A stretch of DNA of 64,000 nucleotides from Hyphomicrobiaceae bacterium (GCA_900298995.1 OMIC01000007.1:1-64000); one strand, 5' to 3'. Numbered from the stretch's first letter, positions 24,680-43,770 are shown. Notes: a model not told the origin generated them from the letters alone. Translations and numbers: made by a program.

Positions 24680-26014
24680 TTAACCTTTCAGGAATTGATT
24701 GATGGAGTCGGCAGCACGACGGCCGTCATCAACGGCGGCAACGGTCAGGTCCTGGCCACCGGCAATGCAGTCTCCTCCCGCCCAGACGCCACGAAGGCTT
24801 GTGCGCTTCTGGTCATCCGTCTTGATGCGACCGCCGTCGAGCGCCAGCTTGCCGCCGGCAACATCGACATGGGTCTGCCCGATGGCCCGGAAGATCATGT
24901 CGGCTGCCAGATCGAAGGTCTCGCCCGTTCCGGAGAGCCGTCCGTCCGTCTCGCGGGTGTATTCGCAGCGCAGCCCCACGGCCTTGCCGTTGCTGGCAAT
25001 CACCTCACGGGGGATTGTCCAGTGCCTGATCTTGACGCCCTTTGTCTGCGCCAGATCCTGCTCATATTTGCTGGCCTTCATCTGTCCGGGTCCCCGGCGA
25101 TACAGGATGGTCACATCCTCGGCGCCCAGAAGCCTGGACTGGACGGCCACGTCGATGGCCGTCATGCCGCCCCCGATGACCACGACCTTGCGTCCCACGG
25201 GCAGGCCGGAAAGGTCGCCCGCCTGACGCAGATCGGCGATGTAGCCCACGGCATCGGTGACGCCCTCTGCGTCGTCATTGGCCGCGCCGAGCGCATTGAC
25301 GCCCTGAAGTCCCACGGCGAGGAACACGGCATCGAAGTCGGCCTGCAACTGCGCCAGCGACAGGGTGCGGCCGAGCGCCCGTCCATGCTCGACGGTGATG
25401 CCGCCAATCCCGAGGATGAAATCGACCTCGCGCTGCGCGAAGTTCCCGGGGGCCTTGTAGGCGGCAATGCCATATTCATTGAGGCCGCCGGACTTCTCGC
25501 GGGCCTCATAGACCTTGACGCTGTGTCCATGCATGGCGAGGCGATGGGCACAGGCGAGGCCGGCAGGCCCAGCGCCGACGACGGCTACCTTCTTGTCCGT
25601 AGGGGCCGCGCGCTCATAGGGGTGCACGCCATCCGCCATCAGCTGATCGGTGGCGAAACGCTGCAGAAGGCCTATCTTCACCGGCTTTCCCTCTGCGGTC
25701 TCGCGCACGCAGGCTTCTTCGCACAGGGTCTCGGTCGGGCAGACGCGCGCGCACATGCCGCCGAAGATGTTCTGGTCGAAGATGGTTCTGGCCGCGCTCT
25801 TCGGGTGGCCCGTCTGGATCTGGCGGATGAACAGGGGAATGTCGATCGACGTCGGGCAGGCCTTCATGCAGGGCGCATCGAAGCAGAAATAGCAACGATC
25901 CGACTCGACCAGGGCCTCATGGGCGTCGAGCGGCGGGTGCAGGTCGCCGAAATTCGTCGCGTAATCTGCAACGCTGAGGCGTTTGCCCGTGATGTCGGGC
26001 TTTGTCTGCGCCAT
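24680..26014 (-). CDS. preT: NAD-dependent dihydropyrimidine dehydrogenase, electron-transfer subunit PreT
   Basis: PreT takes electrons from NAD(P)H through FAD and iron-sulfur clusters to PreA. The 444-residue protein has the GltD-type N-terminal iron-sulfur region (CYFCFDAPCMKACPTSIDIP, and later MCARVCPTETLCEEACV). An FAD Rossmann motif VAVVGAGPAGLACAHRLA follows, then a second dinucleotide motif VVVIGGGMTAIDVAVQS. It is the first gene of the preT-preA operon, with a GGAGGGAG Shine-Dalgarno before its ATG. A RutR-box-like palindrome lies 44-59 bases upstream of the start. Confidence 0.95.
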   Translation of the reverse strand: MAQTKPDITGKRLSVADYATNFGDLHPPLDAHEALVESDRCYFCFDAPCMKACPTSIDIPLFIRQIQTGHPKSAARTIFDQNIFGGMCARVCPTETLCEEACVRETAEGKPVKIGLLQRFATDQLMADGVHPYERAAPTDKKVAVVGAGPAGLACAHRLAMHGHSVKVYEAREKSGGLNEYGIAAYKAPGNFAQREVDFILGIGGITVEHGRALGRTLSLAQLQADFDAVFLAVGLQGVNALGAANDDAEGVTDAVGYIADLRQAGDLSGLPVGRKVVVIGGGMTAIDVAVQSRLLGAEDVTILYRRGPGQMKASKYEQDLAQTKGVKIRHWTIPREVIASNGKAVGLRCEYTRETDGRLSGTGETFDLAADMIFRAIGQTHVDVAGGKLALDGGRIKTDDQKRTSLRGVWAGGDCIAGGQDLTVAAVDDGRRAADSINQFLKG

Positions 26015-26057
26015 GGCCGCTCCCTCCGGTCTGAACTATTGGGGAGAATGACAGAAT

Positions 26058-26073
26058 TTGTTCGTTTGGTCAA
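26058..26073 (-). promoter_or_regulatory. RutR-box-like palindrome upstream of preTA
   Basis: TTGTTCGTTTGGTCAA has a perfect right half (TGGTCAA) and a weaker left half (four of seven) of the RutR operator TTGACCA-N2-TGGTCAA. It shares the pattern TTGnTCGnnTGGTCAA with the site at 41222-41237 between rutR and the pyrimidine ABC operon. Position 44-59 bases before the preT start codon suits a repressor site. Confidence 0.58.
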
Positions 26074-26208
26074 ATTTCTTCTCATGCTGCCCGAAACCCA
26101 ACCATGGGTTTAAGAACAAGAAATATGCAATCGATCTCACAAACCTGTGCTATTCGAGTCAGGACGGTTCGAAGAAGCATTTCTATCGTGGAAAAAACCA
26201 AGGGCGGA

Positions 26209-27132
26209 ATGCAAATTGTGGTGCTGGGGGCGTCCGGCTTCGTTGGGCAGCACCTCATTAAATCTCTCTTGGATCGCTATCCGAGCGCCAGAATCGTAGC
26301 GGTATCACGCAAAATAACGAAGCTGGCCTTCGCGCCATCGGTACGGGTGATTCAGGCAGGTCTTGGGGCAAACCCAGATCTCATAAAGGCCTGCAGGGAT
26401 GCGTCGGCCATTATCCATCTTGCGTGGAGCACGACGCCATCAATCTCAAATGTTGCGCCTTTGAACGATGTGATGGACAACCTGGTCGGGAGCGTTGCTT
26501 TCCTTGAAGCGATCAGCCGTGACTTCAGGAAGCGGCTGATTTTCATGTCCTCTGGTGGAACCGTGTATGGTCAACCAATCAATGTGCCCATACCGGAAAC
26601 CCATCCCATCAGGCCGATCACATCTTATGGAATTGCCAAGTTCGGTGTCGAGGAATACGTTGAACTCTACGGCACAAAACATGGCTTTGACTATACAATT
26701 CTCAGAGCGGCCAATCTCTACGGCCCAGGGCAACTGCAGAAGAATGGTCAGGGGGTTATTCCCGCGATCTTGAATTCACTGAAAAACGATGATCCCTTCG
26801 TAATGTGGGGTGATGGATCTGCAATTCGCGATTATGTTTATGTGAGCGATGTCGTCGACGCCATACTCAAGGCGGTAGAACGTCCACAAGCAATCGGAAA
26901 CCGCTTCAACATTGGAAGCGGAGATGGGAACTCGCTCCTAGAGGTCCTTGAAGCAATCGAAGAAATCACCCAGAGAAGAGTGCAGATAAACCAGCGGCCC
27001 ACCCGATCATCTGATGTTCCGGTCAATGTGCTCGACATCAGCAAGGCCCGTAAATTGCTCGACTGGCAACCGCGCGTTGGACTGAAGGACGGTCTACGCC
27101 GAACCATTGAACATGAATTGTGCCTTGCGTAA
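26209..27132 (+). CDS. NAD-dependent sugar epimerase/dehydratase
   Basis: From ATG 26209 the 307-residue protein is an extended-SDR enzyme: MQIVVLGASGFVGQHLI carries the GxxGxxG nucleotide motif at the very N-terminus, followed by IIHLAWSTTP, FMSSGGTVYG, and TSYGIAKFGVEEY with the catalytic Tyr-x-x-x-Lys. RAANLYGPGQ and DYVYVSDVVDAI are typical of UDP-glucose/GlcNAc 4-epimerase relatives. It probably makes an NDP-sugar for the capsule. A GTG at 26188 and ATGs further upstream (26104, 26125) are in frame; I prefer 26209 because the Rossmann strand begins there. It is the first gene of block B and divergent from preT. Confidence 0.85.
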   Translation: MQIVVLGASGFVGQHLIKSLLDRYPSARIVAVSRKITKLAFAPSVRVIQAGLGANPDLIKACRDASAIIHLAWSTTPSISNVAPLNDVMDNLVGSVAFLEAISRDFRKRLIFMSSGGTVYGQPINVPIPETHPIRPITSYGIAKFGVEEYVELYGTKHGFDYTILRAANLYGPGQLQKNGQGVIPAILNSLKNDDPFVMWGDGSAIRDYVYVSDVVDAILKAVERPQAIGNRFNIGSGDGNSLLEVLEAIEEITQRRVQINQRPTRSSDVPVNVLDISKARKLLDWQPRVGLKDGLRRTIEHELCLA

Positions 27133-27382
27133 GAAACCTTCAATCTGAAAAAAGTGTCTGACCCAACAATCGTAGACGACGCCACCCCGTTCTTTTGACG
27201 AAAAACCGACCCACTTTCAAAACCAAGAATTGCGACCACGTATTGCTCTGTGATGCCACAATGGAAGAATTGCCTGATTTCTAAGGCAGGAAACTCTGCG
27301 AAAACAGACAAGGCCATTCACAGACGAACGGGCAACACCATGAAGTTCCCGCAAACATCTGTCGAGGGCCGTTGCAGATCGA
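27133..27382. other. 250-base gap between convergent genes
   Basis: This stretch lies between the ends of the epimerase gene and the leftward secreted-protein gene. It contains no recognisable gene, RNA or strong hairpin terminator. I see nothing in it that can be named. Confidence 0.4.
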
Positions 27383-28663
27383 CTACCTGATATCAATCCT
27401 CATTCGGTAGATCTGCCGGCGCCGGGGAAGTCCGGCCTCATCCGTGTCATACTGCACATAGAAGAGGTAGGGATTCCTCTCAAGAGTATCGAAATTGATG
27501 CTGCTGCTGTCTGGGTCGAGGAGAGAAAAGTAGGACTTTGCCGGAGACTGACCTTTTTTCCAGGTCTGCTTGGGATTGAAACGTAACAGTTCCTGCGGCG
27601 TGGTCCAATTCAGCAAATCCGGAGAAAAGGCATAAACAACTGAACTCTGGCGGGTCCCCAAAGCCACAAACATGTCAGTAGCCGGAATGTATTTCAGGCT
27701 GCTGACAGGGAAGTCCAGTACGGGTTGACAGTCCTCCTTGCGGGTCGTCGTGTAGGGGCTTCCCATGCTGAGGGCAAATGCCTTGCCATTCCATGCCCGC
27801 CAATCGTCAAGTGATTTGCCGCTTCCCCTCAGCAGACACTGCACAGCATGCCGTCCATGGTTCAGATCCCGATCATTGACCATGACATAGACCATCTTGT
27901 CATGAGGATTGCCGACGACTTTCGGGCTATCGACTCCAACTCGCTTCCTTCTAACCGAGAATGCAACCGGCGGTGCAGCGAGCACGTTATCGGCAGGTGG
28001 CGGCGTCACAAAACTGAAACCGCCATCGGTCGACAGGACGAGCGTGACAGCGGAATACCAACATTCAAAATTCTGCCGACTTGAAACCTCGCAGCCTTGC
28101 TCGGCAAACTCATCGCCATGATATTCATTGTGAACAAATCCGAGAACGAACCCATAATCAATTGCGTGCAGTGCAAAAAGCCAGCGCCGACCGTTGTATG
28201 TGCTCGGATCCGGGTCATTGACTGTCTCGACAATGCGGTCGCAGGATTTTCGTCTGGCATCATCGATGGAGGTTCCCTCGAGAATATAATTGTTTTGGTT
28301 CGAAGCAATGACCACGACTGAGTTATCCTTGCGCCGGAAGGCCGTCAAAGGCACGTCTGGCTGATCGCGAGCATCTCCTTGCCTTGACCTTTTGCAATTC
28401 ATGCCGTCTTGCGCCAGAAAAAGCTCTGGTTCCCCTGAAATTGTCAGGGTCAGATCTGAAGCCCATGAAAGCTCAGTCGGCAGGGAGAGTATGGCAAGCA
28501 GTAGCAGTGGGAAATGTTTCAGAGGGAGAGCGAAGCGGAAACGCTTCAGTTTCGGTCGTGGCGCATTGGCTGGAAGCCCTGAAGAATAACTGGCAAATCC
28601 CGTATGGTATGAATAGTATTCAGCCCAGTACCGATCGCAAGATGATTGCATGCCAATATCCAC
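27383..28663 (-). CDS. Exported protein of unknown function, possible beta-propeller
   Basis: The 426-residue product has a hydrophobic export segment, ALPLKHFPLLLLAILSLPTELSWAS, at about residues 45-69, preceded by an unusually long N-terminus; no better start codon is visible downstream. The mature part contains repeated beta-strand patterns with Asp-box-like elements such as LVLSTDGGFSFVTPP and YAFSPDLLNWTTPQELL. These resemble sialidase or family-43-type five- or six-bladed propellers. That is suggestive of glycan binding or cleavage but not enough for a name. The first 14 bases overlap head-to-head with the start of the rightward sulfotransferase gene, so one of the two starts may be annotated too long. 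Confidence 0.68.
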   Translation of the reverse strand: MDIGMQSSCDRYWAEYYSYHTGFASYSSGLPANAPRPKLKRFRFALPLKHFPLLLLAILSLPTELSWASDLTLTISGEPELFLAQDGMNCKRSRQGDARDQPDVPLTAFRRKDNSVVVIASNQNNYILEGTSIDDARRKSCDRIVETVNDPDPSTYNGRRWLFALHAIDYGFVLGFVHNEYHGDEFAEQGCEVSSRQNFECWYSAVTLVLSTDGGFSFVTPPPADNVLAAPPVAFSVRRKRVGVDSPKVVGNPHDKMVYVMVNDRDLNHGRHAVQCLLRGSGKSLDDWRAWNGKAFALSMGSPYTTTRKEDCQPVLDFPVSSLKYIPATDMFVALGTRQSSVVYAFSPDLLNWTTPQELLRFNPKQTWKKGQSPAKSYFSLLDPDSSSINFDTLERNPYLFYVQYDTDEAGLPRRRQIYRMRIDIR

Positions 28664-29417
28664 CCTGTTTTCTGCTGGCCTCGATCCATTTCTTAAAGCG
28701 CATGGAGATCGCCCACAAGACTTCTGGCTGTTTCAGCACATCCCGAAGACCGCCGGTTCTGCCGTCCGAAACCAACTCTTCAAGGCCCTGAGGCCGTCGA
28801 CAGGTATCGATGTCCGGAACATCGATCCCAGCCTCCCGCTTGATGAGAGGAGAGACAAGGCCACAGACGAATTCCTTGGGAAACTGAGCATCCGGAACTA
28901 CCGATGTGCTGGTGGTCACATCAGCATGCAGCATGTGTTGCGCATCCTCGAGAGCCGCCCCGACGCAAAGCTCATCACTTTCCTAAGGGATCCTGTCGAG
29001 AGGTTGCTGTCCGACTACGCCTATTTCTATCACGAACGGATTGCTGGCGAAAATGAAGACCGCGTCAAGAATCAGTTCGCCAGTCTTGAGGGGTATGTTC
29101 ACCACCCGTCGAGCCAGAACAAGATGTTCCGCTTCCTGACTCCCGATCAGGCCATGACGGATCAGGATTTGCTCGCCTATATGAAAAATCGCTTCACGTT
29201 CATAGGACTTCAGGACAGATACGCTGAGTCAATGGCGCTGCTCGGGCGTCTGATCGGCAAGATTTTTGACGCAGAAACGCGGATCAGGGACGGAGAACAG
29301 CTCGGAACGAAAAAACCGGTGATAAATGAGGAAGACAGAAAGTTGATCGCGGCGAAGAACCGCCTTGACGTCAACCTCTATGCGCATTTCAGCCAGATGC
29401 TCGAGCCCTTTTTATGA
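28650..29417 (+). CDS. Sulfotransferase family protein
   Basis: The 255-residue protein has the PAPS P-loop WLFQHIPKTAGSAVRNQL near residues 26-43 and the 3'-phosphate-binding region LITFLRDPVERLLSDYAYFYH, as in the heparan-type/family 2 sulfotransferases. Length is normal for a single-domain enzyme. It is the only sulfotransferase gene of the window on the plus strand. Its start overlaps a divergent secreted-protein gene, and its last 29 bases overlap the end of the convergent sulfotransferase gene. It probably sulfates the capsular glycan. Confidence 0.85.
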   Translation: MPISTLFSAGLDPFLKAHGDRPQDFWLFQHIPKTAGSAVRNQLFKALRPSTGIDVRNIDPSLPLDERRDKATDEFLGKLSIRNYRCAGGHISMQHVLRILESRPDAKLITFLRDPVERLLSDYAYFYHERIAGENEDRVKNQFASLEGYVHHPSSQNKMFRFLTPDQAMTDQDLLAYMKNRFTFIGLQDRYAESMALLGRLIGKIFDAETRIRDGEQLGTKKPVINEEDRKLIAAKNRLDVNLYAHFSQMLEPFL

Positions 29418-30183
29418 ACATGTCAGACTCGAGGAAAGTGCGAAGCGCAGTGCGGTCACTGCTGATGTCTGGCGCGCGAACCTGCCCTTTCTCCCTGATG
29501 TCATCACTGTAGCCGTAGATCAGGAAGTCCGCTTCGTAATATCTGGCCAACCGAGCTGCCAGGCGCGGAGTGATGAATTCGTCGATGCGGCTTCCTGCAT
29601 TTGTCCGGTTTTCATCATCTCTGCCGAGCGCAAATCCATTCAGCTGAAGGAAATGTGAGAGATCGGCTAGGTTTTCAAGTGACCCAAGCCGGTCTACAGG
29701 AAGAAATCCATTGAGCAGATTGATGTGTTGTGGTCGAAAATGATGGTCAATCTCAAATGGGTCCAGGGTCGTCACCACATCAATGAAGTGCTCGAAGGAA
29801 GGCTGCTCTTCTGCATTTGAAAAACCCACGCGGCGGGCTATCTTGCCCCAACGAGTGGGATGTCTAACCTTGTTGAGATAGGCTGACAGGAACCGGTGAT
29901 AAGGGTTCCGGACCGCCGAAAAAAATTGAGACGCCAGCAGCTCAGGAACCAGACTGACATCAAAGTCACGAATGGTGCGTGGGAATGGACGTTGGTCGTG
30001 TGGACGGCCATGGGGATTTATGGGTGAGTTCGCGGGATCATGTCTGCGCCAGAGCATGAGAACAAAAGACGTGGAAGCAACTTTTGGATTTTGAATATAA
30101 CTGACCTGCTGACCAGGAAAATGCACCAATCTCTTGAAGAGTTGATTCTGGCCTTGCCTATTGACGGATTCGAATTTCATCAA
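29389..30183 (-). CDS. Sulfotransferase family protein
   Basis: The 264-residue protein has the P-loop VSYIQNPKVASTSFVLMLW near residues 31-49 and the second conserved region FFSAVRNPYHRFLSAYLNKV, which identify the family 2 (HNK-1/chondroitin-like) sulfotransferase fold. The C-terminus lacks a membrane segment, so the enzyme should be cytoplasmic, where the PAPS donor is made. It is third from the left of the leftward genes of block B, downstream of another sulfotransferase. It converges on the neighbouring plus-strand sulfotransferase with a 29-base overlap of coding ends. Confidence 0.84.
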   Translation of the reverse strand: MMKFESVNRQGQNQLFKRLVHFPGQQVSYIQNPKVASTSFVLMLWRRHDPANSPINPHGRPHDQRPFPRTIRDFDVSLVPELLASQFFSAVRNPYHRFLSAYLNKVRHPTRWGKIARRVGFSNAEEQPSFEHFIDVVTTLDPFEIDHHFRPQHINLLNGFLPVDRLGSLENLADLSHFLQLNGFALGRDDENRTNAGSRIDEFITPRLAARLARYYEADFLIYGYSDDIREKGQVRAPDISSDRTALRTFLESDMFIKRARASG

Positions 30184-30318
30184 TCACGTTCACAATCGAT
30201 AAGGAAGGATGTATTCCATGTTTCTTCAGGCTTCGTCAAGGCACATGGACCTGTAAAAGCTGAAGGAGAACTCCCGGACCGCATACGAGCAGGAGCTCTT
30301 TAAGACTCAGTCGCATGA

Positions 30319-31371
30319 TCAAGAGCCACGCTTCTGCAGGCGCAAGAGCTCGGTCGAAATCGCTTCTACGAGTATGCAAATCTGCTCTTCGCTTATGTGG
30401 TAGCGACCCGGCACATCCGCTGCGGACGAATCATTCCAACCCTCTATCGGCTCAATGAGAAGTCTCTCTGCTGGGTCGAGGAAGCTGTTAAACTCTTCAA
30501 CGGTTGGCGATATGAGCGCTCGAACTGTTCTGTACGAGACAGGATCTATGCGGGGTTTTTGTGCTTTAATGTTGGGAAGACTGTTTACGAATGCGGTACC
30601 CAGAAATCGGCCGGTTCCTGCCAGGCGCTTGTTGAATTCCATCTGTATCTTGCACTCAACCGTTGAGAGGCTGCGGTTCACCGACGGTGTGGGGGGTAAG
30701 GTCAATCTGTCAATAAGCTCGGAAGATGGACTTCCCTCAAACAGGTCAGAAAAGAAGGTGCGCAAGAGATTGGTGCGGTGTCTTGAATAGTTGCGGATGA
30801 TCAGTCTGAAGCCCTGTCTTTGTGATGCCTTTGCCCACCACAGGAGCCGAGCGCAGTGAACTTCTGCCTTTCTCGGCAGAAAATCATCCAGATCAACAGT
30901 GCAGTCTGCTTTCTTTACGGATTGCAACCAGGCCGATACGAGGAAGTCGATTATGTCACGCACGTAGAGGACAACAGTCACGTCATTTGACTTGCTCAAT
31001 ACGAGGGTTTCAAGCTTGTCGCCCTTAGGCAGGGCATTGAAAAGCCGCTCGCCAGAAATGAGCGTCGTCGGACCGCTGAAAACCCGATCACTTTCCAGAA
31101 ACTGATAGTTTCCGCTCGAAATGAGACCTTTCAGTGCCTTGTGATGATCGGCAGCTTCAGGGTAATGAATGCCCGCGCTCTCAAGCAGTGTGGCGTTGAT
31201 TGCAAGCACGGACTGAATGTAGCTTGAGCCTGTTTTCCCATGGCCAATGTGACAGATCAGCTTGCCATGTCCCATTCCTGACGCTTTCAACTGTTGGCCG
31301 CAAGTAGACATAACAGGACAGTTATCGATTTCAATCCCGACCAGTACAATATGGCCGCCATGGATATGCAT
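30319..31371 (-). CDS. Sulfotransferase-like protein
   Basis: The 350-residue protein contains the P-loop LICHIGHGKTGSSYIQSVL, followed by ISGERLFNALPKGD and VVLYVRDIIDFLVSAWLQSV. This arrangement resembles the first domain of the double sulfotransferase at 12720-14582 (HIGMHKTGTTSIQ, ISGEDIG, VRPPKSFVSSAFQQQV). The P-loop starts near residue 37 with the start given; an internal ATG at 31275 would place it at the usual position near the N-terminus, so the true start may be there. No clear Shine-Dalgarno decides between them. Its place just downstream of the capsule export genes suggests it modifies the exported polymer. Confidence 0.8.
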   Translation of the reverse strand: MHIHGGHIVLVGIEIDNCPVMSTCGQQLKASGMGHGKLICHIGHGKTGSSYIQSVLAINATLLESAGIHYPEAADHHKALKGLISSGNYQFLESDRVFSGPTTLISGERLFNALPKGDKLETLVLSKSNDVTVVLYVRDIIDFLVSAWLQSVKKADCTVDLDDFLPRKAEVHCARLLWWAKASQRQGFRLIIRNYSRHRTNLLRTFFSDLFEGSPSSELIDRLTLPPTPSVNRSLSTVECKIQMEFNKRLAGTGRFLGTAFVNSLPNIKAQKPRIDPVSYRTVRALISPTVEEFNSFLDPAERLLIEPIEGWNDSSAADVPGRYHISEEQICILVEAISTELLRLQKRGS

Positions 31372-31578
31372 ACAACGTCAGATTTTGTTTACAAACTAGG
31401 ATTGTATCGCCAAAATACCTCACGATAAGCAGCAACGGCTACCGTTCAGATGAAGGGACGCGATGCAGAAGAATGCCTTGAAAGCTTCAACCGACGAAAT
31501 TCAAAAATCATCAGAAGACATGAACCACGCCCACGAATAACGCGGAGGCCTTCTGCGTCCGATCTGGAGATGAAGTCG

Positions 31579-32664
31579 TCAGGAGTGTTCCCGTACGATT
31601 GCAACCATAAGAGTTGAGACAAAGAATAAGACCAGCAAAACGATAACGGCTGTGATGATGTTGTAGGTCCGGTCGGGGTAAAGCGATGCGTCAGCAAGGG
31701 AGGGGCGGACTACAACAACGAGATACTTCAATCGCTTTGCCGCTTCAATGCGCGCACCTTCCAACTGTGTCAAGTTGGACTTGAACACTGCCTGAACGAA
31801 CTCGAGCCGTCCCTGGATCTCCGCGAATTCTGCCGAGAGTTCACTGACCGGTACGCCCGACCCGCCGCCAGCAAGCCCATCCTTTTCCGTGCGTATCTGC
31901 TCCTCCAGGATCTTGATGTCGGCGCGAAGATTGCGGATGACGGGTGAATTCTCATTGAGTTTCTGACCTTCCGCTTCGAGTTGGCCCTTTTTGGCAACAA
32001 GCGCTGAGGTGAGGCTGGCGATCGTGGACTGGATGACCGCCGCCTCCGACTCTGTGGTCAGCAGACTGTGCTCTCGCTGGAAATCAAGGAGTGCGGCCTT
32101 CTCCTTCCTGAGGCGGGCTTCAGACTGAGCGAGCTCCTTCTCGAAGAATTCTGTCTTTTCCTTTGTAATCCCGGAGTTCAGCCTGTCGACAAATCCCTGG
32201 CCTTCGTCAAGGAGGGTTTTCACAATGCTGTTTGCAAATTCGCGCGAGAACGCCTGTGCATGTATGTTGATTAGCCCGGTCGTCTCATCCTGTTCGACCA
32301 TCATGTAGCTGGCCATATAGGTGTGAAAATCCTCCTGGGAGGCATCCTTGGGCAAGCGGGACCACCAGTCTATCTGGCCATTGGAATAGTGTTCCCTAAG
32401 ATTCAGCTTCTTGTCCAGCAGTTGAAGCATCTCTTGTGAGTTCATGAAAGCGATCAACGTTTGCGAGTCCTGACTTCCGCTGGACGAGGGCAGTCCGATG
32501 AATGACAAGTCAATCGGGCTTGCTACGCTGTTTTCGCTCGACACGAAGATTGTTGAATCACTATGATATCTGTCGGAGGCCAGGGCCAACTCATAATAGG
32601 TATAGAGCCCCAGTGGGATGAGGAAGAGCAACAGGAACATCACGAGGCGATATCGGTGGGTCAT
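31579..32664 (-). CDS. kpsE: Capsule export inner-membrane protein, KpsE/BexC/CtrB type
   Basis: KpsE-type polysaccharide co-polymerase proteins bridge the ABC exporter and the outer-membrane channel. The 361-residue protein has an N-terminal membrane segment (YRLVMFLLLFLIPLGLYTYY) and a large periplasmic part with a coiled-coil region at about 165-290. A C-terminal membrane segment (TYNIITAVIVLLVLFFVSTLMVAIV) follows, with a proline-containing stretch (VVRPSLADASLYPDR) just before it. This is the classical PCP-3 topology and length. It lies downstream of kpsT and belongs to the leftward capsule operon. Confidence 0.9.
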   Translation of the reverse strand: MTHRYRLVMFLLLFLIPLGLYTYYELALASDRYHSDSTIFVSSENSVASPIDLSFIGLPSSSGSQDSQTLIAFMNSQEMLQLLDKKLNLREHYSNGQIDWWSRLPKDASQEDFHTYMASYMMVEQDETTGLINIHAQAFSREFANSIVKTLLDEGQGFVDRLNSGITKEKTEFFEKELAQSEARLRKEKAALLDFQREHSLLTTESEAAVIQSTIASLTSALVAKKGQLEAEGQKLNENSPVIRNLRADIKILEEQIRTEKDGLAGGGSGVPVSELSAEFAEIQGRLEFVQAVFKSNLTQLEGARIEAAKRLKYLVVVVRPSLADASLYPDRTYNIITAVIVLLVLFFVSTLMVAIVREHS

Positions 32665-32738
32665 GGTCCTGCCTGTCTGTATGAGAGCATAGAAACCAAA
32701 CTGAGCTGATGATAGATCGGCCGCTGGACCTTCATTGT

Positions 32739-33677
32739 CTATGCGCGCTCATGTCGCTGTCTGGAAATGGGTTGATCTGTTTTGCGGGCAACAGTCATGT
32801 CGGCCTCGTCAGGCCCAGCCCTTCTTGCCTTAGGCGTTGTCGATGTCAGGGCCTTGGCGTCTGAGGTAGTGCCTTTTCTTTTGGCTACAGCACCTTTCGA
32901 CTGTTTTCTTCGTCTTGTTTTTGGAGGTGCGGCTACCGATTCCAACTGGTCCGGCGCTTGCTTTTTCCTGCGGGATCGCTTGGGGCTTTTCTTTTTTCCA
33001 CTCTTCTGGTTCCCCTTGCCCAGATCCTCACCGTAAAATATCGCAGCTTCCCTCACATCCTCAAAAAAGGTGAGCTTGCCATCCTTGATGACAATCCCGG
33101 AGTGGCAGAGTTCCAGGATCTCGTCGATGTCATGTGAACTGAGAATAAAGCGAGAGGTCCGCAGACGTTCGGCAATCATCTCTCTCGCGGTCTTCCGGAA
33201 TGCACGGTCACCACCCGCACTGATTTCGTCGAACAGATAGTAGTCGAACTTCATCGACATGTTCAGCGCAAATGCGACCCGCTGCTTCATACCCGCAGAG
33301 TATGTCGATACTGGCATCTCGAAATATCTTCCAATGTCGGATATTTCGCGAACATATTTGATCATTGCGTCGATTTCTTCGCGTGTCATTCCATAGATGC
33401 GGCCAGCAAAGCGCGCATTCTCTGATGCCGTGAGTGAAGGTTGAAGACCAGGCGTCAGTCCCATGGGTGGTGATATCCGTCCGGACTTCATTATGCGGCC
33501 GGAACTCGGCGCATCGGCGCCGCCAATGAGTCTGAGAAACGTTGATTTTCCTGCGCCGTTGGGTCCGATGATGCCAACGTTCTTGTCCAGCGGCAGGTCA
33601 AGGGTTACGTTTCGGAAGACGTAATGCCGCCCAAAATCCGTGACATAGTATTTCGTGACGTCAATGAGCCGGATCAT
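32739..33677 (-). CDS. kpsT: Capsule polysaccharide ABC exporter, ATP-binding protein KpsT, with basic C-terminal tail
   Basis: KpsT powers export of the lipid-linked capsule through KpsM. The 312-residue protein has Walker A GPNGAGKS (38-45), the signature YSAGMKQRVAFAL (126-138), Walker B YYLFDE (146-151) and the switch His in LSSHDIDE (179-186). The ATPase part ends near residue 220, the normal full length. It is followed by about 90 extra residues very rich in Lys, Arg and Ala (KKKSPKRSRRKK, KTRRRKQSKG), which KpsT proteins normally lack. The tail looks disordered and may bind acidic partners or the sulfated polymer. The start overlaps the kpsM stop by four bases. Confidence 0.92.
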   Translation of the reverse strand: MIRLIDVTKYYVTDFGRHYVFRNVTLDLPLDKNVGIIGPNGAGKSTFLRLIGGADAPSSGRIMKSGRISPPMGLTPGLQPSLTASENARFAGRIYGMTREEIDAMIKYVREISDIGRYFEMPVSTYSAGMKQRVAFALNMSMKFDYYLFDEISAGGDRAFRKTAREMIAERLRTSRFILSSHDIDEILELCHSGIVIKDGKLTFFEDVREAAIFYGEDLGKGNQKSGKKKSPKRSRRKKQAPDQLESVAAPPKTRRRKQSKGAVAKRKGTTSDAKALTSTTPKARRAGPDEADMTVARKTDQPISRQRHERA

Positions 33678-34546
33678 CGTTCAACGATCCGGTGTCGATT
33701 GGCGTAGTAGGCGGCAAAGCCAAGAAACAGACAACCCGCCGAGAATGCTGCGAGAAACGATACCGAAGCTTCCGGAAATGGCTGAATTCGCAGGGTGTAG
33801 AGACGCAAGAGCTCCATGGCATGGGCAAAGGGGTTATAGGCGATCCACTTCTGAGCAAGATCTGGAAGTTGGCTGGCCGGATGTATGACGGCTGATGTGA
33901 AAAATAGTACCTGTGTAAATCTGCTGAAGATCTTGGGTACAAACGAATAGATTGCTCCATAAGTGCCAAGCAACAGGCTCAATCCGAAGCCCGAACACAT
34001 CAAAAGAGCCATAATGCCTATGGCTTCGAGCGGATGATGAAAATCCATGCTGAGGCCAACAAACCACCACGACAAGACAAAGACGATCAGCCCGCCAACG
34101 ATTGTAAGGGAAATCTCGAGAATGAAACTTGCCAGAACAGCATCGAATGGCTTGATGTTCGGATAGGCATAGAATTTTATGGTAGATTTTATTGAGCGCG
34201 GGATAGAACTGAAGGATCGCCTGATAATACTGAACGCCGTCATGCTCACGGAAATGAAGATCAGCGTGTGCACACCCATGATCTCCTGAACGCGCATGAC
34301 GTACCAGAATGCAGCTACTGCGAAGACGCCAATTGCAGGTTCAACGACAATGCCGACAAGAGATAGAAATCCATAGTTGTCTTCCTTGGAAGTTGTTCTT
34401 ATCTCACGGAATATCAGGGCGAAGACGACGTTGGCCTGCTTTCGTCCCCCCTCGCGCAGTTCATGAAGGAACTGCCCGAGCCGGCTCGTCGGCAAAGTTT
34501 TGGGGCCCTGGTCGGTCAGGTCCGGGATTTGCTGAACGTTTTCCAT
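33674..34546 (-). CDS. kpsM: Capsule polysaccharide ABC exporter, permease KpsM
   Basis: The 290-residue protein is an ABC-2-type permease with about six membrane segments, starting after a cytoplasmic N-terminus of about 55 residues. Segments include FLSLVGIVVEPAIGVFAVAAFWYV, a second cluster near 140-175 and a C-terminal one (FLAAFSAGCLFLGFAAYYA). The motif PASQLPDLAQKWIAYNPFAHAMELLR before the last segment is characteristic of KpsM/Wzm-like capsule exporters. It moves the finished, lipid-linked polysaccharide across the inner membrane. Its start overlaps the kpsC end by 31 bases and its stop overlaps kpsT, so the three are coupled. Confidence 0.92.
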   Translation of the reverse strand: MENVQQIPDLTDQGPKTLPTSRLGQFLHELREGGRKQANVVFALIFREIRTTSKEDNYGFLSLVGIVVEPAIGVFAVAAFWYVMRVQEIMGVHTLIFISVSMTAFSIIRRSFSSIPRSIKSTIKFYAYPNIKPFDAVLASFILEISLTIVGGLIVFVLSWWFVGLSMDFHHPLEAIGIMALLMCSGFGLSLLLGTYGAIYSFVPKIFSRFTQVLFFTSAVIHPASQLPDLAQKWIAYNPFAHAMELLRLYTLRIQPFPEASVSFLAAFSAGCLFLGFAAYYANRHRIVER

Positions 34547-36579
34547 GCTCGTCGTGTCATTATCACTGTCCAGCCCCGAAGTGTATGGAGCTTTTGACGC
34601 AACCCCGGCTTGCTCGCACGGGCCTCCCTGATGTGCTCCAGCGTCAGTTCCGGGGGACAGGGCAGTCCGCTCGCCGGGTCCCAGTATCGGGCATAGCGCA
34701 GAAGCGCAGCTGTCACCAGTTCATCGAGGCTCCGGGTCCGGCCACGCCGGACCAGTGGCGCGCTGTCCGACGTGAGGCCCCAGCCGGCGTAGAAGGGACG
34801 CCCATGGACTGTGACTGGCAGACCCCGCAGAAGCGTTTCGAAGCCGGTCAGGGAAGAATAGGTTTCCACGCGTGAACAGGCAGATAGAAGGCCGTCGAGG
34901 CTGGTGTTGCGGGCCACGACGTCAGCGAGGCCCTCGGCCGCTGGGCTGAGGGCGCCCGCTCGGCCCAGCCGTTCGACATCGGGGTGAGGCTTGAACACGA
35001 GGAATGCTGACGGATTCTCCGTACGCACGCGCTGGAGAAGCAATTCATTGACATTCTGCCCCTCGGGGAATCCCGGCGGACGGCCGATGGATACGGCCCA
35101 GTCGTCCGCTACCTGTCCCGGCACGAGGACGATATCCCGGGTTCCGGGCTCGGGCATGACCGGAAGAGAGAGGCGTCCTTGGAGATTGTATTTCGTGACC
35201 TTGGCGGTCACAATCTGTTCACGCAGGGCGGCGGCACGGGCCGAGTCCGCGGCGAGGTCATCGCTGCCAGCCAGCATGGTCTCAAGGTCAGACGGGCCGG
35301 TTGGATCAAAATAGATCCCGCTCCGGTCAAACACGAGCGACAGTGGTTGCGTGAAGGCAGCCCCAAGCCCGACTGATCGCAGGAAGCCGTCTTCCACTGC
35401 GATGCAGGAAACCCCCTGGGCGGCGAGAAGTGGTCTCAGCCGGATTGCGGAGATGCCCCAGGCTGCGATGCTGGCCCCCGAGGATCTTGCCAGTGCGGTC
35501 GCGCGCTTGAGGTTCCGCGTGTAGCGGGGCGGGCCGGCCGGTCCGTCAAGCATCGCCGTGACGGCCTTCTGCTTCCACTTGGCGATCCGATAGCCGATGA
35601 CTGGTGTGCTGTTGTCAAGGAATCGGCGTCGCAGGAAGGCAAGTTGATCGACAGCGGTTTCTGCGCTGACAGGAGTGCGGCGCCAGCAATCGAAATATCT
35701 TGCATAGCGCAGATAGACCCCTGCGGCCAGTTCCTCCCTGCTGCGTGTGCGACCACGCCGGTCAGGCTTGATCCGGTCATCGGTGAGTCCCCAGCCGGCG
35801 AAGAAACCCTGGCCGAAACAGGTGACGCGGCATCCGGACATCAAGGCTTCGAAGCCGAACTGGCTTGAAACTGTGTAGACGTGCGGTCTCAGATCGAGAA
35901 GGCACCAGGGTGACACTGGCTCTGAGAAAACCCTGAGACCAAGCTTCCTGGCGGCTTCCGCGAGGTAGCCCTGCTTGGTTCCGGCGACTGTCTCGGGATG
36001 TAGCCGCGCTATGATCGTTGCGTCAGGGTTTTCTGTACGTGCAGCTTCCACCATGCGTTCAAAGGTCGAGGCATCAGACATGGACCCAGCAATAGACGCA
36101 TCACCGACTGTCTGATCAATGACCAGCACAAGCTTCCGCCTGAGATCGAACTCTTTCAGGGGCCTTTCCATACTGTGATTGTATTTGGACAGCCTGTGAC
36201 GGGCGATCAGCGCCAGAAGATCCCGGGCTCGGTCAATTTCATCGGGCTTGAAGGTCGCGGTCGCAAGCAACGTCTCCAGATCACTTGGCTGGCGCGCATC
36301 ATAGTATATGCCACTCCGGTCAATCACCATCGAACAGGGCAACTGCGAGGGGCCGGGCTTCACCGACCGCAGAAATCCGTCTTCAATTGCCACATAGGGC
36401 AGGCCGGTCCTTGCCGCGAGGCGGCGCGCCCTGTCTGCGCTTGGCTTGTGACCCCAACCCGCAACAGCGGCTGCCCCGGCCGGCGATACAAGTCGAAAGC
36501 TGGGAACCAGTCCCGTCAAATGGCCGATTTCAGGCTCGAGGCGACGAAGTCCACGCGAGAAAAATGCGATATCATCCAT
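34516..36579 (-). CDS. kpsC: Capsule polysaccharide Kdo transferase KpsC
   Basis: KpsC is a two-domain beta-Kdo transferase that, with KpsS, builds the poly-Kdo linker on lyso-phosphatidylglycerol for ABC-exported capsules. The 687-residue protein shows the expected internal duplication. IEDGFLRSV appears at 65-73 and again as VEDGFLRSV at 395-403. FAGWGLTDD (260-268) matches FYAGWGLTSD (596-605). R-LHPE (192-196) matches FKPHPD (529-534). Full length is typical. It lies 36 bases after kpsS and overlaps kpsM, and is one of the best markers that the polymer in this region is a Kdo-linked capsule. Confidence 0.95.
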   Translation of the reverse strand: MDDIAFFSRGLRRLEPEIGHLTGLVPSFRLVSPAGAAAVAGWGHKPSADRARRLAARTGLPYVAIEDGFLRSVKPGPSQLPCSMVIDRSGIYYDARQPSDLETLLATATFKPDEIDRARDLLALIARHRLSKYNHSMERPLKEFDLRRKLVLVIDQTVGDASIAGSMSDASTFERMVEAARTENPDATIIARLHPETVAGTKQGYLAEAARKLGLRVFSEPVSPWCLLDLRPHVYTVSSQFGFEALMSGCRVTCFGQGFFAGWGLTDDRIKPDRRGRTRSREELAAGVYLRYARYFDCWRRTPVSAETAVDQLAFLRRRFLDNSTPVIGYRIAKWKQKAVTAMLDGPAGPPRYTRNLKRATALARSSGASIAAWGISAIRLRPLLAAQGVSCIAVEDGFLRSVGLGAAFTQPLSLVFDRSGIYFDPTGPSDLETMLAGSDDLAADSARAAALREQIVTAKVTKYNLQGRLSLPVMPEPGTRDIVLVPGQVADDWAVSIGRPPGFPEGQNVNELLLQRVRTENPSAFLVFKPHPDVERLGRAGALSPAAEGLADVVARNTSLDGLLSACSRVETYSSLTGFETLLRGLPVTVHGRPFYAGWGLTSDSAPLVRRGRTRSLDELVTAALLRYARYWDPASGLPCPPELTLEHIREARASKPGLRQKLHTLRGWTVIMTRRAWKTFSKSRT

Positions 36580-36615
36580 CTTGCCGCCCGGTACCCCGCC
36601 TCTGCCTGCGGAGGT

Positions 36616-37905
36616 TCATGAAACCTGTTTGAGCGTCCTGACGGTACTCCGAATGCCTTCATCATGCGCAACATGCTGACCCTCGTCCGTCAGTTTGTTC
36701 ACGAGTGTTGGCAGGAGTATGGCGCGGCCCTCGTCCGTGTAGAAGCTGCCATTGAACTGGCACGTCCGGATCATGTGGGCAATGAAGCTGGTGTAGTCCG
36801 CCTGGTCCTTCACCGGCCGGAGCCTGAAGAACTCGGACATCTTCATGCGCGAGACGATCTGCGGGTGGTTGAAGACTGCCCGGCCAAGGAGCAGTGTGGG
36901 AATTCCGCGCAGAAGCGCATGGTGACAGGATGTCGAGTTGACGGCTACCGCCGAGATTGACCGCTCCAGCATCTGGCTCAGTTTGCCGCCGTCCACGAAG
37001 AACACGCGGCCTGTCATGCCATGGCGTTCGGCATGGCGGCGTATGACCCGCCGCAGTGGTAGAAAACCGTTGTCCAGTGGGTGGTTCTTGATAACCAGAA
37101 TGCTGTCTGTTGCGCCACTGGCAGAGAATTCTGCAATGCAGAACTTCACGAAATGCTTCACAGACTTGAAGTCTGAATGAACCTTGATCTGCGAATCCCC
37201 GTTCAGCTGGAGCAGAACCATGTGCATCGGTTTGTTCAGGCTGGCAATCTCGGCATCTGTTAGCCGGAAACGCATCCGCCGCAGCGGCCAGGCAAAGAAC
37301 CGCCTGACCCATAGCGCGGCCTCGGTCACGAGGCCGAGCTCCCGGTGCGGAGAATAGCGCGGAAAGATCGGCTTGAGAAAGAAGGTGGCGGAATAGTATA
37401 CAAAGGCAGAGAAACAATATCGTGAAGTGCTGGGTTTCAGCTCCTGTTCCCTGGGCAACTCGGAATTAGGGGGCAGCTCTGACACATCTGTGCTGGTCAG
37501 CCGCGAATAGCCGTTCACGCCGTCGCGCTCGCACGTGACCCAGTTTGGCCGTATGTAGCCTTCTTCAAGCACATGGACGCGAACACCCAGCGGTTTCAGA
37601 GCTTCAATCGCCGCGCGGTGGTAGTGACGGCAGTCACCGTAGCAGACCAGATCAGTGATGCCCTTGCCGCGTGCAAAGTCCACGACCCATGCCGGCCAGT
37701 CCTTGAGCGATTGCCGATACCAGATTGACGGACGACCAACTGCATTCAGTGCATCGCCACCATTGAAGGCAATCCGGGTGCAGGAGTGGCCGGCGGCCGT
37801 CAGCGACGCGTCGAGCTGCCGCCCGAAAGCGCCACACGGCATCTGAAGCAGCAGGAAATGCTGTTTCGCTGGGCTGTATGTTTCGTTTCCTGGGCTGGGT
37901 GTCAT
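36616..37905 (-). CDS. kpsS: Capsule polysaccharide Kdo transferase KpsS
   Basis: KpsS adds the first Kdo to the phospholipid anchor. The 429-residue protein shows the family features FLLLQMPCGAFGRQLDASL at the N-terminus, WPAWVVDFARGKGITDLVCYGDCRHYHR, the VLEEGYIRPNWVTCERDGVN motif (comparable to the EDGFLRS motif of KpsC), and IKNHPLDNGF followed by VAVNSTSCHHALLRGIPTLLLG. Length fits. It lies upstream of kpsC in the same leftward operon, 159 bases downstream of the outer-membrane export gene. Confidence 0.94.
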   Translation of the reverse strand: MTPSPGNETYSPAKQHFLLLQMPCGAFGRQLDASLTAAGHSCTRIAFNGGDALNAVGRPSIWYRQSLKDWPAWVVDFARGKGITDLVCYGDCRHYHRAAIEALKPLGVRVHVLEEGYIRPNWVTCERDGVNGYSRLTSTDVSELPPNSELPREQELKPSTSRYCFSAFVYYSATFFLKPIFPRYSPHRELGLVTEAALWVRRFFAWPLRRMRFRLTDAEIASLNKPMHMVLLQLNGDSQIKVHSDFKSVKHFVKFCIAEFSASGATDSILVIKNHPLDNGFLPLRRVIRRHAERHGMTGRVFFVDGGKLSQMLERSISAVAVNSTSCHHALLRGIPTLLLGRAVFNHPQIVSRMKMSEFFRLRPVKDQADYTSFIAHMIRTCQFNGSFYTDEGRAILLPTLVNKLTDEGQHVAHDEGIRSTVRTLKQVS

Positions 37906-38064
37906 GGTCTTGTAATTCGACGGAGATCGGAAGAGGTACCTCTACAGTCGGTCCGGGATGGTTACAACTGTTGTCGATCTGGAGGCCAGTGCCTTCATCT
38001 GAGAGTTGAGCAACGCCCTTCGACCTTTGATTATGGCTGTTGTAACGGACCGGCAGAATGGGCG

Positions 38065-39195
38065 CTAGTCGCCAGAGAACAATTGTCCTTCCAGAGCAGT
38101 CTGCGTACCAATGCTGCTGCGTACGGTTGCAAGGGTTATGGCAATTGGTTCCAGGGTCCGCACCCACTCGACGGCAGGAGCATTCGTCACGTAGATCGTG
38201 TCGTCATTTCTGACGCCAAAAGCCTGCGCGATGAAAATCGTCTCGGGCTTCGACATGTCAAACTGGAAAACGGCCGGTCCCTCCCGCCATTTTCCGTCTG
38301 CGTCGCGCCAGGCTTTCGGTTCGTGCAGTCGGAAAACGAAAACACCGGTGTTGCTGGCCCTGGTGTCGGCGAGTCCACCCGCCTGCGCCATGGCATCCAT
38401 CAGCGAAGGATTGGTCTTGGGAAAATCGATCTGGCCGGTCTTGGCGAGGGCTCCCAGTGCGTTGAATACCTTGGCGTCACGCTCCAGCGTGACCTCATCG
38501 CCGGCGCGCAACTGCTGATTATTCCCATTCAGCACGCGTTCCAGGGGAATGCGCTTCACGGATGTTCCTCGCCGGATGACAACGTCGATCTGATAGGGTG
38601 GCTGGGTCGCGCCCCCGGCCTTGGCTATCGCGTCGACCAGCGTCAGCGGTCCTTCCAGCATCGAAAAACGCCCTGGATTGCGGACCTCGCCGCTGACCAG
38701 CACACTCGAACCCCGGTCAGCTACGATTTCGACATAGACTTGGGGTTCGACCGCAATGCCTTCGAGGCGTTTGCGGATGGCCGCTTCAACCTGGGGCGGA
38801 TCGAGGCCTGCCACCTTGATGCGGCCGACATAAGGCAGTGAGATCGTGCCTTTGTAGTCGACGCGCACATTGTCGAAGCTGCTCCCGCCGGAGGCGAGTG
38901 GGGCAAAAATACTTCCGCCCGTGGTCTCGGAGATGTGGATCTTCATCACGTCGCCGGATGACAGAGATGTGGGTGGTGCCGGCGGGACTCCTGGCGTACC
39001 TGCCGCGTCTGTGGCAGGCTGAACCCGGTAATTTGCCACGCGCTGCGCGTTCATTTCGATCAGCGTGAAACCGGCAAGATCGTTTGACTCGCGTGTGATG
39101 GCGTTTTCGCTGGGTCCACTGCGGGCTATGCATCCGGCGAGCAGCAGGAGCGAAATGCTCACCAGCACGCGCCGGAGTGTTCCCGACTTCACCAC
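38065..39195 (-). CDS. Outer-membrane polysaccharide export lipoprotein, Wza/KpsD/BexD type
   Basis: From a GTG at 39195 (39192 also possible) the protein has 376 residues, the usual length of Wza/BexD proteins. It starts with a lipoprotein signal, RRVLVSISLLLLAGC, whose LAGC lipobox gives an acylated Cys. A PES domain follows, with LSSGDVMKIHISETTGG, VDYKGTISLPYVGRIKVAGL, then SLBB-like segments (VLVSGEVRNPGRFSML and so on). It forms the channel through the outer membrane. The frame stays open upstream to 39516, but that would overlap the preceding gene and bury the lipobox, so I reject the longer start. A GGGGG stretch precedes the chosen codon. Confidence 0.88.
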   Translation of the reverse strand: MVKSGTLRRVLVSISLLLLAGCIARSGPSENAITRESNDLAGFTLIEMNAQRVANYRVQPATDAAGTPGVPPAPPTSLSSGDVMKIHISETTGGSIFAPLASGGSSFDNVRVDYKGTISLPYVGRIKVAGLDPPQVEAAIRKRLEGIAVEPQVYVEIVADRGSSVLVSGEVRNPGRFSMLEGPLTLVDAIAKAGGATQPPYQIDVVIRRGTSVKRIPLERVLNGNNQQLRAGDEVTLERDAKVFNALGALAKTGQIDFPKTNPSLMDAMAQAGGLADTRASNTGVFVFRLHEPKAWRDADGKWREGPAVFQFDMSKPETIFIAQAFGVRNDDTIYVTNAPAVEWVRTLEPIAITLATVRSSIGTQTALEGQLFSGD

Positions 39196-39358
39196 AGACA
39201 AACCAACCCCCACAGACCCATTGGCATCACAAACCGGGCCGCAGATCCTAAAGGCAAGGATCCGCTCTCGTCCGAAAACTCTTAGCCGCTCCCCGTCAGG
39301 CGGGCAAGACCGCTCGGAAGGGTGCGCTGCCGCAGGAAAAAGGTGGAAAATTCTGGGT

Positions 39359-40561
39359 TTATAAGGTGATGCCGAGTTCGTGCATCCAGAACTTCCGCAC
39401 CCTCTGCATGTCCCCGAGGGTACGTGACAGGACCTGCCCCCCTGTGGCGATCCTGAGGGTGCGGTCGCGCCGTGATGCGAGGTCCAGAAGAGCTTGCCGC
39501 CAATCGTCGGGGTCATTGCTGATCAGAAGACCTGTCTGACCATGTGACACGACGCGGTCAAATGGTTGCTGGCGGCTGTAGAGACCGGCTGCGCCGAAGG
39601 CTGCGTGATCATGAAGTTTGCTGATCGATCGCGCCCGGTTGAAGGATGTGTCGAGCGCCGGCGCAATGGCCACGTGAAAGTTGTTTTCTGCAACGAAACG
39701 GCGGTACTGCTGCCACCCCATCGGTGAAATATGTATGGCATTGGCCTGCTTGCGCAATTCCTTCGGGGCGTGGCCGTTGAGGAAGGTTGTAAGCCGCGCA
39801 TGAGGCAATTGCGACAAGACGTCGGCAAGGGCGGGAGCAATGCGCTCGAAATCCTGCAAATGTGAGCGGCTGCCTGCAAACACGATCTCCAGTCGGTCGT
39901 GTTCACGATGGTGATCCAGTTCGACGACAGGATGGCATTGCACGGGGTCAAGGTGCAGTGTGCGTTTGCCGTGGTGAGCGCGCAGGATGTTCTCGGAAGG
40001 TGCAACTACGTCGGTTGCAATCTCGCACAACTCTCTGTAGGCGCCGTTCCTGTACCTCAGAAGGCGCCGCCTGTAATCCGGCGGGAGTCCGTTTGGATCC
40101 TTCAGGCTTTCGAGATCGTCATCGATTACCAGGTAGATCCGCTCGAACCTTCCTCGCCGAAGGATTTTGATCTCTTCTCTGTTTGCATAGCGGATGACGA
40201 CTGCTGCCCGGCCGCACACATAGACGGACTGTGAGAGTTGCTGAATGGGACGGCCCGTGAAGTCTTCATCGCTGTCGATCAAGCCTGCCAGCGGATCGGC
40301 GAAATAGAGGGATACGGAGGGCGTCGGGATTCGTCTGGCGCTGCCACCAAACAGGCTTCTGAGCCGTGTTCGCGCCACCGAGCGCACCAACTGCTTCAGC
40401 AGAGCCAAACCACACATCCCCAGGCTGAAAATCGCGATCGCGGCTGTTCTCGTCCAGCTACCGGAGTGAATCAAGCATAATCTGCAGATTTTTCGTAAAT
40501 GTACCACGAAGTTGTTGTTTCGAGGCAGTATTCCCGGACAACTTGCCACCGGTTGCAGCAC
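39359..40561 (-). CDS. GT-B-like protein in the capsule operon, probable glycosyltransferase
   Basis: The 400-residue protein lies first in the leftward capsule operon. Its C-terminal half has GT-B features: LEIVFAGSRSHLQDFERIAPAL, the region HVAIAPALDTSFNRARSISKLHDHAAFGAAGLYS (a donor-site-like stretch), and HGQTGLLISNDPDDWRQAL. These are common in family 4-like transferases. The N-terminal part has one possible hydrophobic helix (AIAIFSLGMCGLALL, about residues 41-55). A GTG start at 40561 has a good AGGTGGGG Shine-Dalgarno; an ATG at 40417 is an alternative. The donor and acceptor sugars are unknown. It ends 163 bases upstream of the export lipoprotein gene. Confidence 0.7.
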   Translation of the reverse strand: MLQPVASCPGILPRNNNFVVHLRKICRLCLIHSGSWTRTAAIAIFSLGMCGLALLKQLVRSVARTRLRSLFGGSARRIPTPSVSLYFADPLAGLIDSDEDFTGRPIQQLSQSVYVCGRAAVVIRYANREEIKILRRGRFERIYLVIDDDLESLKDPNGLPPDYRRRLLRYRNGAYRELCEIATDVVAPSENILRAHHGKRTLHLDPVQCHPVVELDHHREHDRLEIVFAGSRSHLQDFERIAPALADVLSQLPHARLTTFLNGHAPKELRKQANAIHISPMGWQQYRRFVAENNFHVAIAPALDTSFNRARSISKLHDHAAFGAAGLYSRQQPFDRVVSHGQTGLLISNDPDDWRQALLDLASRRDRTLRIATGGQVLSRTLGDMQRVRKFWMHELGITL

Positions 40562-40578
40562 CGTGCCCCACCTGCCGG

Positions 40579-41208
40579 TCAGCGCGGCCGCAGGCCCTCC
40601 ACGAAGAGCGAGGTGAGGGCAGCCTCGGCCGTGTCCATGAGATCAGGGGGGGTGCCGATCAGTGCGTGCACCTGGACATCGAAGTCGGCATAGTGCTGCG
40701 TCGTGGCCCAGATGGCGAAAATCAGGTGATGAGGCTCGATGGGGCGCAACCGTCCTTCGGCTGACCAGCGGCGGATCACGGCGGCCTTCTCGTCCACCAG
40801 CAGTTTCAGGGGCCCCTTCAGATAGTCGGTGATTGCCGGGGCGCCATGCAGGATCTCATTGGCGAAGAGGCGGGATGCCTTCGGGTTCTCCCGCGACATG
40901 CGGATCTTGGACCGGATGTAGCGCGTGATTTCCTCGAGTGGCTCGCCCGCAGGGTCAAGGCTGCGCAGGGGGTCCAGCCAGTCCTGCAACGTATGCTCCA
41001 GAACCGCTACGTAGATGTCTTCCTTGCGCCGGAAATAATAGAGCAGATTGGGCTTCGACAGGCCGCATTTGGTGGCAATCTGGTCCACCGTGGCGCCACG
41101 GAAACCATAGGACGAGAACACCTCCAGTGCCGCATTCAGGATCAGTTCCTTGTTCAGCGCCTGAATCCGCGTCGTCCGGGGCGTGCCGCCAGTCCCACTC
41201 ATGGGCAT
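40579..41208 (-). CDS. rutR: TetR-family regulator, RutR type
   Basis: RutR represses pyrimidine-degradation genes and is released by uracil or thymine. The 209-residue protein has the TetR DNA-binding domain at residues about 15-65 (ELILNAALEVFSSYGFRGATVDQIATKCGLSKPNLLYYF), and a ligand domain with the RutR-like stretches SKIRMSRENPKASRLFANEILHGAP and LIFAIWATTQHYADFDVQV. It is divergent from the pyrimidine ABC transporter operon, with a RutR-box-like palindrome in the 80-base gap between them. That palindrome and the neighbouring hydA support the assignment over other TetR groups. Confidence 0.88.
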   Translation of the reverse strand: MPMSGTGGTPRTTRIQALNKELILNAALEVFSSYGFRGATVDQIATKCGLSKPNLLYYFRRKEDIYVAVLEHTLQDWLDPLRSLDPAGEPLEEITRYIRSKIRMSRENPKASRLFANEILHGAPAITDYLKGPLKLLVDEKAAVIRRWSAEGRLRPIEPHHLIFAIWATTQHYADFDVQVHALIGTPPDLMDTAEAALTSLFVEGLRPR

Positions 41209-41221
41209 ACTCTGTTAATTC

Positions 41222-41237
41222 TTGATCGGATGGTCAA
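41222..41237 (+). promoter_or_regulatory. RutR operator between rutR and the pyrimidine ABC operon
   Basis: TTGATCGGATGGTCAA matches the RutR box TTGACCA-N2-TGGTCAA in 12 of 14 defined positions, with a perfect right half. It lies between the divergent start codons of rutR (41208) and the ABC transporter ATPase (41289). A closely similar palindrome stands before preT (26058-26073). It probably controls both divergent promoters in response to pyrimidines. Confidence 0.75.
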
Positions 41238-41288
41238 GTCCGGTTAGCGTTTCCCTCATAGCAGCCAAGAATCAAGGGAGGAGCTGAA

Positions 41289-43735: not shown

Positions 43736-43770
43736 GCGGTTCTGACGACAAACAAGAGGAGACAGGGACG

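Follow-up and report, generated by a model that had tools for sequence, protein, structure and literature searches.

The DNA considered here is a stretch of 64,000 nucleotides from a Hyphomicrobiaceae bacterium (GCA_900298995.1, OMIC01000007.1:1-64000; the window, at its full length), in which the genes of reductive pyrimidine catabolism lie in two blocks. A 16-bp element resembling the E. coli RutR box stands before each of them, one upstream of preT and the other between rutR and an operon encoding an ATP-binding cassette (ABC) transporter. The question raised by this locus is whether the two elements are operators of a single regulator. Very probably they are: one RutR-type repressor would block the preT, abc and rutR promoters from both sites, and its release by uracil or thymine would switch on pyrimidine uptake and breakdown together.

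Two RutR-type sites and their conservation

The genome searched (2.99 Mb, 99.4% complete) belongs to an Aestuariivirga-group alphaproteobacterium of the order Hyphomicrobiales. A preliminary description of the window had placed the 16-mers TTGTTCGTTTGGTCAA at 26058-26073 and TTGATCGGATGGTCAA at 41222-41237, and a direct sequence check found both exactly there, next to the genes it had named. The two sites are read as follows.

26058-26073, minus strand: predicted preT operator, reading TTGACCAAACGAACAA along preT; consensus TTGACCATTTGAACAA in 25/25 congeners; apart from the rutR/abc site, the only one in the genome
41222-41237, both strands: predicted rutR/abc operator, reading TTGACCATCCGATCAA along rutR (minus strand) and TTGATCGGATGGTCAA on the abc strand; consensus TTGACCATTTGATCAA in 30/30 congeners

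Conservation carries the argument. In all 25 congeners the region upstream of preT contains TTGACCATTTGAACAA (TTGACC-n4-GAACAA) or a near variant in the same register, usually 50-73 nt before the start, and the intergenic region between rutR and the ABC ATPase gene contains TTGACCATTTGATCAA (TTGACC-n4-GATCAA) in all 30. The two classes are separated by position 13 on the preT/rutR strand, which is A at preT and T at rutR/abc. Both sites stand out from chance because they are conserved in relatives, and not because of their likeness to the E. coli box (TTGACCANNTGGTCAA), from which the preT site differs by three mismatches and the rutR/abc site by two.

A matrix was derived from 55 operators of the genus, all from other species and none from the window's own genome. 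In the window it gives its highest score, 25.0 bits, to the rutR/abc site and 21.7 bits to the preT site in second place; the third-ranking position reaches 12.5 bits. Simulated sequence (3 Mb, both strands counted) contains no position that scores as high as either site. In the real genome a site internal to an open reading frame (ORF), at C7:156259, scores 21.73, the same as the preT site. The genus pattern at one mismatch has four further matches in the genome (C7:57373, C7:156259, C14:14431 and C40:63649). As additional regulon members these were rejected as probable chance, since all overlap ORFs (the window ORF 56796-57518, and ORFs of 634, 628 and 496 amino acids, the 628-residue one on the opposite strand) and none lies at the promoter of a recognised pyrimidine gene; no such gene was seen at the four places, the ORF products not having been run against family libraries.

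Two details of the preliminary description hold in part. The exact shared pattern TTGNTCGNNTGGTCAA occurs at these two genome places only (reversed control: 0 matches), but the shared G within it (TTGnTCG) is incidental: among the other species of the genus it occurs at 5/30 rutR and 0/25 preT operators. Both sites are present, but as palindromes they are weak, with imperfect left halves (4/8 and 5/8 complementary positions).

Beyond the genus, 80 named loci of Hyphomicrobiales and Rhodobacteraceae were compared. A RutR-like site stands before rutR in 73 of them (at least 11/14) and before preT in 55 (at least 10/14); the site is kept, but its placement in the promoter differs. Tandem RutR-like sites exactly 20 bp apart precede preT in Phyllobacterium, Aurantimonas, Jiella and their relatives (13 loci at +20; the group includes L149, L150, L155, L157, L159, L166, L172-L174 and others), a spacing that suggests cooperative binding. 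Aestuariivirga has a single site.

The regulator and the genes it would control

The regulator, the genes for the reductive pathway and the transporter genes are listed below.

40579-41208, minus strand: rutR-type TetR repressor (PF08362); translation probably starts at 41202
24680-26014, minus strand: preT, FAD/Fe-S subunit of dihydropyrimidine dehydrogenase (PF14691 and PF07992); adjoins preA throughout the genus
23357-24667, minus strand: preA, catalytic subunit of dihydropyrimidine dehydrogenase (NF006183, 732 bits, cut-off 335)
41289-42065, plus strand: ABC transporter ATPase (PF00005)
42066-42968, plus strand: ABC permease 1 (PF00528)
42698-43735, plus strand: ABC permease 2 (PF00528 at residues 163-336); true start probably downstream of the ORF start
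43450-44763, plus strand: substrate-binding protein, NMT1/THI5-like (PF09084); true start probably downstream of the ORF start
44834-46288, plus strand: hydA, dihydropyrimidinase (TIGR02033, 617 bits, cut-off 393)
46554-47798, plus strand: hyuC-type carbamoylase, candidate beta-ureidopropionase (TIGR01879, 418 bits, cut-off 204)

The regulator passes the Pfam cut-offs of PF08362 (YcdC-like TetR_C_3; 173 bits vs 25) and PF00440 (TetR_N; 49 vs 24), and 97/204 of its residues (48%) are identical to E. coli RutR. According to the alignment, W77, Y97, W167, Q171 and Q179, the reported uracil contacts in the 6Z1B structure, are all identical in the two proteins, and so are K52 and K62, the reported DNA contacts (PMC10891134). 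RutA was not found in the genome, so that the RutR-type protein would here serve the reductive pathway. Across 100 genomes, preT and rutR are both present in 57, apart in 9 (4 + 5) and both absent in 34 (Fisher p = 5e-17, with relatedness ignored). One 99% complete congener (G019; loci L081 and L241) has rutR, abc, hydA and hyuC together with several NCS2 permeases, and it lacks a true preT (the best match, E = 2.9e-52, is a paralogue).

The set for reductive pyrimidine catabolism is complete. PreA, the dihydropyrimidinase and the candidate carbamoyl-beta-alanine hydrolase are above the cut-offs of NF006183, TIGR02033 and TIGR01879, respectively; for PreT no NCBIfam model scores above its cut-off, and the assignment is by domains and neighbourhood. 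Two further genes follow hyuC (47735-49828), one for another M20-type hydrolase and one for a protein of the RidA/L-PSP family. As RutC, from the Rut pathway, also belongs to the RidA family, they may act in the reductive pathway too.

The substrate of the ABC transporter is likely uracil or a relative, as the preliminary description had proposed, and the backing for this putative role is indirect. Neither NCS2 (UraA/RutG-type) nor NCS1 permeases are detectable in this nearly complete genome, which supports pyrimidine uptake by the ABC transporter, and both are missing in 23/37 genomes of the genus. The nearest solved relatives of the substrate-binding protein (3ix1, THI5), to which its similarity is distant, bind thiamine-type pyrimidines.

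Promoter overlap and competing explanations

The sites were picked by the E. coli box, blind to promoters, and 17 bp were then counted from each half-site. A -10-like hexamer (xAxxxT) lies at exactly this distance in 26/26 genomes of the genus for preT, 29/31 for rutR and 27/31 for abc, while other spacers are found in 0-3. The operator half-sites in this genus appear to be -35 elements, and in the window the predicted elements are the following.

26068-26073, minus strand: predicted preT -35, TTGACC, the upstream half-site of the operator
26045-26050, minus strand: predicted preT -10, CATTCT, with a 17-bp spacer to the -35
41232-41237, minus strand: predicted rutR -35, TTGACC, a half-site; 17-bp spacer to xAxxxT in 29/31
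41209-41214, minus strand: predicted rutR -10, CAGAGT, followed 6 nt later by the ATG at 41202
41222-41227, plus strand: predicted abc -35, TTGATC, the other half-site; 17-bp spacer in 27/31
41245-41250, plus strand: predicted abc -10, TAGCGT, with a 17-bp spacer to the abc -35

In 30/31 genus members an ATG for rutR follows the operator at 18-20 nt (at 19 nt in the window), a distance that suggests a leaderless rutR message. The conserved ATG is the one at 41202, so that the listed ORF start, 41208, probably lies 6 nt too far upstream. On balance it seems probable, with appreciable room for doubt, that operator and core promoters are fused in this genus: a single 16-bp palindrome would act as operator while also supplying the two back-to-back -35 elements of rutR and abc, the T-to-A change at position 13 of the preT site would weaken the second -35 and make that operator one-directional, and the rutR message would start at its own ATG, so that the asymmetry of the site encodes the direction of transcription. 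Judged by the general account of the RutR survey cited below, the promoter overlap in this genus may be undescribed so far. An epimerase gene bordering the capsule region, divergent from preT, also has the preT operator a short way upstream (region 26058-26209) and might be affected by RutR; no -10 at 17 bp was seen on the epimerase strand of this operator.

The genomes in which rutR and abc have moved apart form a small natural experiment telling operator conservation from promoter conservation. The abc -10 is missing at four rutR promoters (G005, G010, G017 and G024), which are exactly the genomes with rutR and abc separated and a second site before abc. The abc-side copy keeps the full TTGACCATTTGATCAA and the abc -10 in 4/4 and has lost the rutR -10, whereas the rutR-side copy keeps the palindrome in 4/4 and has lost the abc -10 (in G017 the 17-bp position holds no rutR -10 either). 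One shared event seems to account for three of these separations, which leaves one or two independent cases. Since the whole palindrome is kept where only half of it would be needed as a promoter element, the pattern points towards an operator and not just a promoter.

Under the proposed mechanism, a RutR dimer would occupy each 16-bp site when no pyrimidine is present, and would block sigma-70 RNA polymerase at the preT, abc and rutR promoters because the half-sites coincide with the -35 elements. The preT promoter would supply preTA, converting uracil to dihydrouracil; the abc promoter would serve the uptake operon and, behind it, hydA and hyuC, whose products would carry out the two reactions that follow. 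Once imported by the ABC transporter, uracil or thymine would occupy the conserved pocket and free RutR, and uptake and breakdown would come on together. The predicted shared control of the preT and ABC operons, already put forward in the preliminary description, finds strong support in the footprint conserved across the genus, the kept uracil-pocket residues, the co-occurrence of preT and rutR, and the operators that outlast the separation of rutR and abc. The conserved RutR box stands at the promoters of pyrimidine genes and next to rutR, as in a RutR regulon.

Several observations weigh against this prediction. The members of the genus are not independent observations. The regulator misses the NCBI equivalog cut-offs for RutR (TIGR03613, 240 vs 368 bits; NF011584, 212 vs 230), which are still its best two models, and it is therefore named RutR-type and not RutR in the strict sense. 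A generic promoter scan of the rutR/abc region returned no promoter, and the -10 elements match TATAAT poorly. The half-site/-35 overlap at 17 bp fails in other genera, where the operator lies elsewhere in the promoter, so that the overlap is a feature of this genus and no rule. Finally, the genome has 217 matches to the E. coli box at up to three mismatches, and 99 to its reversed control, so that the preT match to this box alone means little. An order-wide rule, by which RutR half-sites would be -35 elements at 17-bp spacing, was rejected, fitting 2/55 preT promoters at the named, mostly out-of-genus loci.

The 16-mers might be only conserved core promoters with TTGACC or TTGATC as -35 and no repressor involved, their likeness to the RutR box arising from TTGAC-rich -35 hexamers. 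The half-sites do fall on -35 positions and conservation extends into the -10, but the spacer bases (GAACAA or GATCAA) vary no more than the -35 does, each copy keeps both halves after the separation of rutR and abc although one would suffice as -35, and other genera keep the site at different promoter positions, sometimes in tandem; we regard this explanation as very unlikely. No more credit can be given to the idea that RutR activates at preT or abc, or only autoregulates, instead of repressing over the -35. E. coli RutR activates carAB indirectly (PMC10891134), yet the -35 and part of the spacer lie under the site at each of the three predicted promoters, a position suited to repression.

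It is likewise highly improbable that the sites are recognised by another regulator, such as a different TetR-type protein or a nitrogen regulator. TetR-type operators can resemble each other, and preT occurs without detectable rutR in five genomes; of these, however, four are <83% complete and the other is a 92% assembly of ~470 contigs, and rutR itself, like its E. coli counterpart, is flanked by a site, which fits the known RutR box. That the preT likeness is a coincidence, with three mismatches to a 14-base box and 217 such places in the genome, has a negligible probability given that the site is kept in 25/25 congeners and that its genus-matrix score is unmatched in the simulated sequence. 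Repression of all three promoters by one RutR-type protein is the reading we retain.

Gene order, related systems and meaning

The preliminary description had the two pathway halves separated by a capsule insertion. Capsule export and synthesis proteins (KpsC/S/M/T/D type) and sulfotransferases do lie between them, at 26.1-40.6 kb, but the preT-preA-fnrL-leuB block (19.9-26.1 kb) is also inverted with respect to linked relatives. In the linked congeners (G001, G011 and G018) preT, preA, fnrL and leuB run in one direction, followed by rutR in the opposite and abc in the same direction, with a leuB-rutR gap of ~1.5 kb; preA facing rutR is also seen in many other families of the order. Polysaccharide genes are found on both sides of the inverted block (248-18584 and 26104-40561). 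In another genome (G029), kpsS-kpsC-kpsM lie downstream of rutR, and a relative of a window glycosyltransferase (14631-17435) lies downstream of leuB. This arrangement fits an inferred history: polysaccharide genes would have been acquired between leuB and rutR, with an inversion following in this genome. Most congeners carry preT and rutR at a distance of tens of kb or on separate contigs, so that control in trans is the rule in the genus.

The system resembles the E. coli RutR regulon (rutR/rutABCDEFG, carAB) in the TetR family membership of the regulator, with TetR_C_3, in the same uracil-pocket and DNA-contact residues, in the ~16-bp box and in an operator placed in the divergent region adjoining rutR. 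Unlike in E. coli, the predicted targets are the reductive pathway (PreTA-HydA-HyuC) and an ABC importer in place of the Rut pathway, the operators are asymmetric (GATCAA or GAACAA as right arm), and only two convincing sites exist in the genome. The reductive clusters of Hyphomicrobiales and Rhodobacteraceae share the set of substrate-binding protein, two permeases, ATPase, hydA, hyuC, rutR, preA and preT; they differ in gene order: behind the operator, abc usually comes first in Aestuariivirga, hyuC follows hydA and preT is often unlinked, and this genome has an inverted preT block.

A survey of Proteobacteria predicted RutR regulons for pyrimidine catabolism in 68 genomes from 13 taxonomic groups, with motif changes that differ from taxon to taxon (RegPrecise; Leyn et al. 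2016, PMC5343134). Judged by its sequence, the Aestuariivirga pair of sites is a further member of these known RutR-type regulons. Our literature search found no paper on RutR in this family. In a poorly studied genus, known largely from metagenomes, one uracil sensor would tie uptake to all three steps of reductive breakdown, and this offers grounds for regarding the NMT1-type ABC transporter as a candidate uracil importer where the usual permeases are missing.

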